A DNA stretch of 64,000 bases from Siccirubricoccus phaeus. Its GTDB lineage: Bacteria > Pseudomonadota > Alphaproteobacteria > Acetobacterales > Acetobacteraceae. Location: NCBI RefSeq assembly GCF_008360935.1, contig NZ_SRXO01000005.1:186001-250000 (forward strand), given 5' to 3'. Below, in pieces: positions 4,370 to 35,150 of this stretch. Position numbers and translations under genes: made by a program. How positions within the stretch are numbered: the stretch's first letter is position 1; the number at the start of each line of letters is the position of its first letter. The notes beneath the pieces were generated by a model that saw nothing but the letters and a program-made list of their open reading frames with translations, was not told where the DNA came from and did no database searches.

Positions 4370-4460
4370 GGAAACTCAGACCGGGGTCCGGGGGGCAACC
4401 CCGGGCGGGGGTGCAGGGGGCAGCGCCCTCTCCCCGGGCGGCGGGGGCGGAACCCCTCCT
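4370..4460. repeat. Gene-end GC repeat, copy A
   Basis: GC-rich palindromic block between two plus-strand genes, with the family's typical ACCGGGGTCCGGGG segment followed by GCAGCGCC and GGGGCGGAACCCC. Related blocks occur at 9594-9700, 12846-12909, 17690-17835, 24957-25137, 39471-39560, 40624-40850 and 56905-56990. Here it points opposite to the preceding gene, unlike most copies. Confidence 0.6.
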
Positions 4461-4554
4461 TTCCCCTCAACTTGCTTCCGTGCCGCGCAACGACGCCCCC
4501 GGCCACGCCGCCCATCTGCTACCCTGCCCCGTCATTCCTAAGCTGGAGGCGTTG

Positions 4555-5463
4555 ATGGCGGCTGCACTCCGGGCCTTCTTCGACCAGGCGACCAACACCG
4601 TCACCTACCTGCTCTGGGATCCGGCGACGCGCCTCGGCGCCGTCATCGACCCGGTGCTGGACTGGGACAACCGCAGCGGCGAGGCGGACACCAGGAGCGC
4701 CGACGCCGTGCTGGCCGCCGCGGCGGAGGAAGGGCTCAGCATCGCCTGGGTGCTGGAGACCCATGTGCATGCCGACCACCTCACCGCCTCCCCCTATGTG
4801 AAGGCCAAGACCGGCGCCCGGATCGGCATCGGCGAGCATATCCGGGAGGTGCAGGCGATCTTCCGCCCGGTCTTCGGCGCCGGGGATGTGCTGCCGGAAG
4901 GCGGCGATTTCGACCGCCTCTTCGCCGATGGCGAGGAATTCGCCCTGGGCGGCCTCACCCTGACGGTGCTGCACGTGCCCGGCCACACCCCGGCCTGCGT
5001 CGCCTATCTGGTGGAGGACATGGCCTTCGTCGGCGACACGCTCTTCATGCCGGATTACGGCACCGCCCGCTGCGATTTCCCCGGCGGCGATGCGCGGACG
5101 CTGTGGCGCAGCATCCAGAAGCTGCTGGCGCTGCCGCCGGAGACCCGCATCCTCACCTGCCACGACTACAAGGCGCCGGGCCGCGACGAATTCGCCTGGG
5201 AGAGCACGGTGGCGGAGCAGCGGGCGCGCAACCCGCATGTGCATGCCGGCATGACGGAGGAGCAATTCGTCGCCCAGCGGGAGGCGCGGGATGCGAAGCT
5301 GGCGCCGCCTTTGCTGCTGCTGCCCTCCATCCAGGTGAACATGCGCGCCGGCCGCTTCCCCCCGGCCGAGGCGAACGGGGTGCACTACATGCGCATCCCG
5401 GTGACGCTGAAGGGCGGGCTGGGCGGGGCGAACACCCAGGCCGTCCAGCCCCAGGCCTCCTAG
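4555..5463 (+). CDS. MBL-fold hydrolase, persulfide dioxygenase (ETHE1/Blh)-like
   Basis: 302 residues. The metal-binding signature is THVHADH (residues 69-75), with further ligands in HVPGHTPAC, VGDTLF and TCHDY. The single-iron pattern and the DYGTARCDFPGGDA loop match the ETHE1/Blh sulfur dioxygenases, which oxidise glutathione persulfide during sulfide detoxification in the cytosol. The start at 4555 is chosen because GGAGG lies just upstream; a longer open frame from 4411 runs through the GC repeat and is unlikely. No BigR/YgaP-type neighbour is present, so the sulfide role is inferred from motifs alone. The TAG stop is the CTAG of a hairpin repeat array. Confidence 0.88.
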   Translation: MAAALRAFFDQATNTVTYLLWDPATRLGAVIDPVLDWDNRSGEADTRSADAVLAAAAEEGLSIAWVLETHVHADHLTASPYVKAKTGARIGIGEHIREVQAIFRPVFGAGDVLPEGGDFDRLFADGEEFALGGLTLTVLHVPGHTPACVAYLVEDMAFVGDTLFMPDYGTARCDFPGGDARTLWRSIQKLLALPPETRILTCHDYKAPGRDEFAWESTVAEQRARNPHVHAGMTEEQFVAQREARDAKLAPPLLLLPSIQVNMRAGRFPPAEANGVHYMRIPVTLKGGLGGANTQAVQPQAS

Positions 5464-5669
5464 AGCGTGATCGGTTGAGGTCGAATCGCCCGAAACCGTG
5501 AATCACGCGACCGAACAATGAGCTAGAGCGGGGCGGGTGAGCGCAGCTCAACCGATCCCGCTCTAGAGCAGTTTCACGCTGACTGTGCAGCGCGAAACCG
5601 CTCTAGCTTATGGATTGTAGAGCAGATTCACGCGTCCGGGCGATGCCGCCCTCCGGCAATCTGCTCTAG
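5460..5669. repeat. CTAG-punctuated hairpin array 1 (four modules)
   Basis: Four successive stem-loop modules delimited by CTAG or TAG at 5460, 5523, 5563, 5603/5617 and 5666. Module 1 has GCGTGAT/ATCACGC arms; module 2 pairs CTAGAGCGGG with CCCGCTCTAG; module 3 pairs GAGC-GTTTC-CGCTG with CAGCG-GAAAC-GCTC; module 4 pairs AGAGCAGATT with AATCTGCTCT. The first CTAG contains the stop codon of the MBL gene. Positions 5461-5566 recur at 34933-35038 with 3 mismatches in 106. Confidence 0.85.
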
Positions 5670-34357: not shown

Positions 34358-34460
34358 GGCGTGATCGCTTCCGGTGGACTCGCCGTGGGCGCGAATCACG
34401 CGACCGAACAAGGATCCGGGGCATGAGCCGCGAGCGCGAGCGAAGGGATCATGCCCTGGG
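34358..34460. repeat. Hairpin-repeat modules downstream of the hydantoinase gene
   Basis: GGCGTGATCGCTTCCGG pairs with GCGAATCACGC (module-1 type), followed by GGGGCATGAGCC...ATCATGCCC. The first module starts at the stop codon TAG of the hydantoinase gene. Diverged copy of the family in arrays 1 and 3. Confidence 0.6.
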
Positions 34461-34520
34461 CGAGGCAGGGGGAGCAGCGTTGCGCGCCCGGCGGCGGCCC
34501 GCCTCCCGGATGAGGCGCGC

Positions 34521-34883
34521 ATGATTCCGATCGAGCCCGAATACACCACCCACAACACGGTGGAGGAGCCCTGGCGGGTGGCGCGGCTGATCCGCACCGA
34601 TGGCAGGGTGCGGGAAGTGCTGCGCATCCTGACGCCGGATGCGAAGGATGGCGAGGGCAGCCAGGGCGAGGTGATCTGGACCCATCACGTGCTGCGGCTG
34701 CATGACGACCGCGGCACCTTGCAGGCGCATGTCACGGCGGCGCTGGGCGGCTCTGCCTGGCTGGCGGTGCTGGGGCTGGCGCTGTCCCGGGCCTGGGATG
34801 GGGAGGATGAGGGCGAGGTGGAGTTCGTGGTGGAGGGCGAGCCGATCCCCTGGCCGCTCGACGCCGTGCTGGGCGAGCCCTAG
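34521..34883 (+). CDS. Hypothetical protein
   Basis: 120 residues, not recognised. Soluble and acidic, with an HNTVEEPWRVARLIRTDG start and a beta-rich middle (VIWTHHVLRLHDDRG), then an alanine/leucine helix (AWLAVLGLALSRAWDG). ATG at 34521 is chosen over a frame opening at 34374, whose extra residues come from a hairpin repeat. Bounded by repeats on both sides; the TAG stop lies in the CTAG of array 3. No operon partner. Confidence 0.6.
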   Translation: MIPIEPEYTTHNTVEEPWRVARLIRTDGRVREVLRILTPDAKDGEGSQGEVIWTHHVLRLHDDRGTLQAHVTAALGGSAWLAVLGLALSRAWDGEDEGEVEFVVEGEPIPWPLDAVLGEP

Positions 34884-35150
34884 AGCGGCTTCACCTCGCC
34901 TGCACTCGGCGAACCCGCTTCAGCCCTTTGTTTAGAGCGTGATCGGTTGAGGTCGAATCGACCGAAACCGTGAATCACACGACCGAACAATGAGCTAGAG
35001 CGGGGCGGGCGAGCGCAGCTCAACCGATCCCGCTCTAGCGGCATTTTCCGAGTCGTCCGGCGATTCCGCCGGGTTTGAAAATGCTCTGATGCCCTGTCCG
35101 CGAAGTTCGCTGGATTTCCAGCGAACGCAGCGGACAAGCAGGCCACCAGC
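34880..35150. repeat. CTAG-punctuated hairpin array 3 (five modules)
   Basis: Starts with the stop codon CTAG of the 120-residue gene. 34933-35038 is the near-identical copy of 5461-5566 (103 of 106 bases). Then GCATTTTC/GAAAATGC with an inner CCGGCG/CGCCGG stem (35040-35087), and a TTCGCTGGA/TCCAGCGAA-type module (35092-35150) related to array 2. Confidence 0.85.

Follow-up and report, generated by a model that had tools for sequence, protein, structure and literature searches.

The described repeats closest to the element analysed here are the CIR, the Caulobacter CcrM-associated intergenic repeats (Chen and Shapiro 2003, via the available text of PMC2229807). As that text has it, CIR are about 110 bp long and consist of two arms and a linker, with GANTC in the terminal loop and TA at the termini; target-site duplication is entered as '?', mobility is left open and CIR are not placed inside genes (PMC2229807). 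The accessible part of PMC10969869 calls them strictly intergenic. Among the statements of PMC2229807 available to us are also that GANTC is the CcrM site and that CIR are partly MITE-like. The same portion of PMC2229807 describes RUP of Streptococcus pneumoniae, 107 bp long, with 108 copies and TA targets, for which IS630-Spn1 has been proposed to act in trans. RIMEs (Rhizobium-specific intergenic mosaic elements) are repeats of rhizobial intergenic regions (PMC2573895, in extract), and REP/REPIN are palindromic repeats of extragenic DNA that reach high copy numbers and share a conserved tetranucleotide (PMC3733652). The BOX repeats of pneumococcus encode the stop codon of 36 CDS, with no strong evidence of truncation according to the part of PMC3049150 at hand. 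A literature search that covered few subscription journals found no account of target duplication by CIR.

We find that the window, the whole stretch of 64,000 nucleotides analysed here, contains two copies of a recently amplified mobile element of the CIR type, and what is new is evidence on how such an element moves.

Two copies in the window and about one hundred in the genome

The initial annotation reported two 106-bp intergenic copies with 103 identities and no gaps. Indeed, re-alignment of 5461-5566 with 34933-35038 gives 103/106 identities, ungapped, and the match breaks off sharply at both ends. Two hairpins with CTAG borders were claimed for each copy; both copies have the two hairpins as well as internal and terminal CTAG (internal at 5523-5526 in copy 1 and at 34995-34998 in copy 2), but the left border, CTAG in copy 1, is TTAG in copy 2. 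The surrounding spaces are unrelated, as had been stated, but the first of them is not purely intergenic, as the first three bases of copy 1, TAG, are the stop codon of the ORF at 4411-5463. We set the boundaries of copy 1 by the ends of the identity together with the TA duplication at other sites. The parts of the two copies are as follows.

5461-5566, plus strand: element copy 1, with TA at 5461-5462, the 101-bp body GAGC...GCTC at 5463-5563, TA at 5564-5565 and the target G at 5566
5465-5508, plus strand: hairpin 1 of copy 1, from the consensus fold and covariation
5483-5487, unstranded: GANTC (here GAATC) in the hairpin-1 loop of copy 1, element positions 23-27, present in 79/83 full copies
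5500-5504, unstranded: second GANTC (GAATC), in the 3' arm of the same hairpin, element positions 40-44, present in 78/83 full copies and in 18/18 sequences of alignment A2 (described below)
5509-5522, plus strand: linker of copy 1 (..ACAATGAG), conserved in alignment A2
5523-5566, plus strand: hairpin 2 of copy 1, CTAG to CTAG, from covariation and repeat matches
4411-5463, plus strand: upstream ORF with the TAG of copy 1 as its stop; its ortholog in G001 ends 3 codons earlier
34933-35038, plus strand: element copy 2, with TA at 34933-34934, the body at 34935-35035, TA at 35036-35037 and the target G at 35038
34937-34980, plus strand: hairpin 1 of copy 2; its two GANTC sites lie at 34955-34959 and 34972-34976
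34995-35038, plus strand: hairpin 2 of copy 2, from covariation and repeat matches

The window as a whole had no Rfam match at gathering scores. The heptamer CTAGAGC occurs 11 times in it, compared to 2.92 expected from dinucleotide shuffles (maximum 7 in 100 shuffles), and TAGAGC/GCTCTA ends hold 10 of the 23 CTAGs of the window. CTAG is strongly depleted across the window, with these 23 occurrences against about 167 expected from base composition. At both window sites the element is absent from two relatives, G001 and G002, and the intergenic DNA there is wholly different (for G002 at the second site, on the left side only).

To count copies, as had been recommended, we searched the draft genome (6.55 Mb in 54 contigs; the window lies on contig C45) with a 72-nt core pattern of 70 specified positions. 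The core occurs at 104 places with at most 3 mismatches (47 forward, 57 reverse), 36 of them with zero mismatches, while the reversed control pattern gives 0. From fetched loci and the window we collected 95 distinct copies: 83 differ from the 106-nt consensus at no more than 12 positions, 18 of these being identical to it, and the remaining 12 have an indel, greater divergence, or hairpin 1 joined to another hairpin. The flanks are unrelated. At E ≤ 1, BLAST matches are present in 30 of 40 genomes (own included), many of them weak. The case considered in the initial annotation, in which the unit occurs only twice in one genome and is absent from relatives, thus does not hold, given some 100 copies and matches in relatives.

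The copies in G001, which is of the same genus, are 74-88% identical and older, and in other genera of the family it is mostly hairpin 1 and the linker that are matched. The G001 copies (L127-L129, L225-L242) are decayed, many with TGGAGC or CAGAGC instead of TAGAGC. The matching named records include one 'uncultured Rhodospirillales' MAG and two from an Asaia MAG; a search of a plasmid collection did not find the element.

Target sites, stop codons and nested repeats

The insertion target is YTAR, and mostly CTAG: the left TA is preceded by C in 65/83 and by T in 14/83 copies, and the right TA is followed by G in 79/83 and by A in 4/83. Orthologous sites in G001 and G002 (about 80-93% and 69-89% identical, respectively, in the larger aligned blocks) allowed us to look for empty sites in close strains, a check suggested in the initial annotation. 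Both ends are defined in 87 of the 95 copies; 45 have a flank matched in the relatives' DNA that was examined, and 6 can be aligned over at least 30 nt on each side of the junction in G001/G002. In three of these six, G001 has a single TA where our genome has TA-element-TA.

L025, empty in G001: 88.6% identity over 402 nt
L084, empty in G001: 84% identity over 351 nt
L087, empty in G001: 92.4% identity over 397 nt; the TA lies in a TAA stop that became TAG on insertion

The other three comprise two sites with TGA at the junction (L010 and L066) and one that is too diverged (L098). In G002, the L087 site has a gap at the junction.

The duplication of TA is also visible within another repeat. 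The copy at L016 sits inside a different 106-nt repeat, and when its flanks are closed up over a single TA they match that repeat in 23 uninterrupted places from 21 sources (the window and L001 being one place); 22 of the 23 matches are ungapped around the junction, and 17 have CTAG there. Both window copies also adjoin other repeat families.

5564-5669, minus strand: second 106-nt two-hairpin repeat family, sharing a TA with copy 1; 22 near-full matches, 85-100% identical, from 21 sources of own DNA, with the window and L001 as one place
34881-34932, minus strand: first part of a third repeat family, split by copy 2; the joined flanks align ungapped with L064, L119, L095 and L097, and there are 5 near-full matches in own loci
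35036-35089, minus strand: second part of the third family, from the joined-flank alignment and the near-full matches
34374-34883, plus strand: ORF whose TAG stop is the terminal TAG of the third family; in its G001 and G002 orthologs this codon is a TGA stop

The joined flanks of copy 2 match 8 places, one of them in a relative (L042); the best 4 matches, at 82.7-86.3% identity, are ungapped at the junction, and the junction bases in these four are CT, TG or CG, not TA. The linker of the second family is CTTATGGATTG, and the third, again of two hairpins, has a GAATC-bearing hairpin and a AACAAAGGGCT linker on the minus strand. At four loci of the same genome (L075, L108, L109 and L111) a further repeat, which starts TAGTGTCCCGATTCC or TAGTGTCCTGCCCGCGAAGTTCGC and begins at TAG, follows the element directly.

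Landing on stop codons is frequent. Based on GC3-based gene calls made in the analysis, the terminal TAG is the stop codon of the adjoining frame in 31 of the 95 copies, 23 at the hairpin-1 end and 8 at the hairpin-2 end (P=0.011). No coding-like frame enters the element in another phase in any of the 95 copies; a looser scan gave one (L009). Sixteen of the 28 sites compared with G001 and G002 were picked for ending a gene, and another set held 24 gene ends, 14 of them of the element family. Orthologs in G001 or G002 stop at the identical codon in 25 of 32 gene-relative pairs and are shifted in 7. The relatives' stops at the same codon are TGA in 12 cases, TAG in 10 and TAA in 3; thus, the stop before insertion is often not seen as one that contains TA. 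In a first comparison, which took TAGAGC stops of the element and one other family, all same-codon relatives had TGA (9/9, with 3 more shifted), while for own TAG stops without the element the relatives had TAG in 10, TGA in 3 and TAA in 2 cases, with 2 shifted. The excess of TGA among relatives of element-bearing stops persists in the larger sample. A conversion of TGA to TAG by insertion was considered and dropped on the larger sample of 12 TGA, 10 TAG and 3 TAA. Stop codons that bear the element here have a different TAGAGC hairpin in G001 at L099, L115 and L021, and likewise at the other gene end of L016; at L109, the same other repeat family stands at the stop codon in both genomes.

Covarying hairpins and GANTC sites

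The two hairpins covary across genera. Alignment A2 holds 18 sequences from ten genomes and eight genera, namely the window copy and 17 of 24 copies prepared from relatives (43 loci), aligned with MAFFT without structure, and the structure was written from folds. Decayed and near-duplicate copies were left out, and this choice of well-kept copies favours a well-kept structure. In A2, 89.0% of the pair cells are paired, compared to 73.6% after shuffling and 31-41% when the structure is slid. Of 34 pairs, 21 show compensatory change on both sides; shuffling gives 15.4, with 21 attained in 3 of 500 shuffles, and sliding gives 4-12. The covariation score is 0.469 compared to 0.193 shuffled and 0.08-0.10 slid. 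When folded as a single sequence, copy 1 pairs its two ends, unlike the consensus fold, because the ends within its own family are also inverted repeats.

We ran a covariance model on 299 genomes from the phylum and, with a cut-off of E ≤ 0.001, obtained matches in 28, our own and 27 others, all of the same class; kinship is listed for 48 of the 299, two listed genomes of the same family are without a match, and the 251 unmatched genomes are those without a kinship listing. The class-wide matches retain TAGAGC-like ends, hairpin 1, often a AAACAAAGAG-like linker, and hairpin 2. The compensatory changes across genera show that structural selection also acts on the element over long times. The initial annotation had offered recent copying, by a mobile element or by gene conversion, or else strong structural selection. 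Some 100 copies with unrelated flanks, together with the empty sites and the TA duplication, point to a mobile non-autonomous element, on which structural selection acts in the long term as well; gene conversion alone is not enough, since a relative has empty sites where copies stand here.

The element is enriched in GANTC, with 1.89 sites per element, or 17.8 per kb of element; the density is 1.54 per kb for own loci and 1.31 per kb for the window. In A2, the loop site is found in 9 of 18 sequences and is thus not kept in all genera. Class-wide, 26 elements contain 32 GANTC compared to 10.6 after mononucleotide shuffling, and 5 of the 26 have none. The element may be linked to methylation.

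Candidate enzymes, rival readings and known systems

We looked for DDE transposases with two profiles, PF13358 (IS630) and PF13586 (IS5). The IS630 profile finds one locus with an open frame and a remnant in the draft. The locus contains a putative IS630-like element of 1055 bp (L133 1375-2429, G000:C23:264498-267899) with TA-GAGC ends, TA-GAGCCATTTCCGATCAG and TA-GAGCGGCCTCCGACCTGATTGAAT. Similar GAGCGTTTTC ends are found on the IS630s of two relatives, 1057 bp long in G010 and 1059 bp in G011, where one end reads GAGAG. Ends of this type are present in 3 of 30 IS630 loci; in the other 27 the ends differ or are not recognisable, and several of these loci run off their contig. The initial annotation had asked for an IS with matching ends, and here the answer is divided: TA-GAGC is common to the element and one IS630 of the genome, but beyond TAGAGC the ends of the element family are unlike those of IS630. 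Scored against the three IS630s, the element family shares TAGAGC alone and ranks 24, 24 and 13 of 29 elements (24 with L133). A CIR-like element, L287, resembles the L133 IS630 at each of its two ends, left to left and right to right (16/18 and 22/27, TAGAGC included; shuffle P=0.003). A first test of six ends gave P of 0.02-0.25, and a two-ended shuffle test on the three IS630s gave P=0.003, 0.030 (with ends swapped) and 0.017, which are single-test values uncorrected for two tests and three ISs. ISY100 duplicates TA (PMC2170065, in extract). A two-base TA duplication together with TA-GAGC ends would favour IS630-type transposition in trans, to judge from sequence. IS630 itself reportedly prefers the TA in CTAG, going by the title of a 1991 paper by Tenzen and Ohtsubo. 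A DDE transposase has no evident use for conserved hairpins, and this counts against the IS630 reading.

The reading we prefer, at a probability of roughly 75%, is that of a CIR-type miniature element, transposable but non-autonomous, that duplicates TA and was most likely moved by an IS630/Tc1-type DDE transposase. The 101-bp body, GAGC...GCTC, inserts into the TA of CTAG or YTAR and doubles it, as the three orthologous sites and the nested one show. With G as the first base of the element and TAG restored at its edges, a stop TAG or TAA hit in this way is TAG at the same codon afterwards and the protein is unchanged, as seen at the three clean sites. Insertions at other places in genes are presumably removed by selection. 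Further elements can land on the CTAG at either edge, which explains the chains and nests that are shown for one copy and seen in the window. The mobilising enzyme would probably act in trans.

Another DDE transposase could have done the same work, for example one of the IS5 branch with TA, TNA or CTAG targets, and IS5-branch elements with CTAG targets do exist (IS870). The genome has three PF13586 matches, two above the curated cut-off, and one IS5-like element of 857 bp (L131 914-1770, G000:C34:146374-149613) has inverted GAGC ends, GAGCGGCTAACAAAAC and GAGCGCCTAACACAAC, with TTA on both flanks, so that GAGC alone does not single out IS630. However, its flank repeat is of three bases, TTA, compared to a TA duplication within CTAG for the element; of 16 positions beyond TAGAGC, its left end shares 2 and 4 with the element family; and it is an IS630 that matches a CIR-like element at both ends, in a test run on IS630 ends only. 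We therefore consider a transposase of such another family unlikely. This IS5-like element apparently lies within a frame that resembles an IS110-type transposase by eye. The TAG-footed hairpins and the conserved two-hairpin structure also recall REP/REPIN elements moved by a RAYT, an HUH tyrosine transposase, and a published model has GTAG-tagged REPs with RAYTs (PMC3733652). This link, which the initial annotation had put forward, is not supported: PF01797 (Y1_Tnp; RAYT/IS200) has no match in the 54-contig draft at E ≤ 0.1, while the same search is positive in 8 of 14 control genomes, and TA is duplicated at the empty sites. HUH insertion is not known to duplicate TA, and we judge movement by a RAYT very improbable.

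A reading that dispenses with movement holds that the element is a functional RNA or 3'-UTR element whose copies are alike through gene conversion and structural selection. Strong covariation across genera would fit this, as would the one third of copies that begin or end at a stop codon and the tendency of hairpin 1 to face the gene (23 versus 8, P=0.011). Yet it has to contend with sites that are empty at 84-92% identity, a copy within another repeat, unrelated flanks, and 36 copies with identical cores at 70 specified positions, and we give it hardly any credence; at most, mobile copies could have been put to such a use secondarily, after they had spread. Extending the preferred reading, CIR-type elements across Alphaproteobacteria might all be IS630-mobilised hairpin transposons in which GANTC ties transposition to the CcrM hemimethylated phase after replication, spreading harmlessly via CTAG stop codons and each other's edges. 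Dam sites tie IS10 transposition to the hemimethylated phase. We offer this wider scheme as a speculation, and a rather doubtful one.

Among known systems, REP/REPIN share with the element high copy number, palindromes, extragenic position and a conserved tetranucleotide, but our genome is without a Y1 transposase match and the element duplicates TA. BOX repeats, which are modular in build, likewise encode stop codons and are otherwise unrelated. RIMEs are about 108 bp long with two palindromes, and the likeness, by description only, lies in intergenic position and this similar size. RUP agrees in size, copy number, TA target and an IS630 proposed in trans; however, the terminal inverted repeats of RUP resemble those of its IS, while our element shares TAGAGC alone with IS630 and folds as two separate hairpins.

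The element fits CIR by five features, as likened to CIR1-CIR4 from descriptions, not sequences: its length of 106 nt (TAG to TAG also 106 nt in G022, G020 and G006, and 98-138 nt in class-wide matches), two inverted repeats as two arms joined through a linker, a GANTC site in the hairpin-1 loop (79/83 copies), TA at the termini, and an intergenic position, with 31 of 95 copies abutting a gene at its stop codon. Both occur in several alphaproteobacteria. The difference is that there are about 100 near-identical copies here and that target duplication, '?' for CIR in the text available from PMC2229807, is shown here. The recent burst in this genome makes empty sites readable, and with them the TA duplication, the CTAG-type targets and the landing on stop codons. 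The covariance model reaches other families of the class and, with the candidate enzymes, makes the question of CIR mobility testable.
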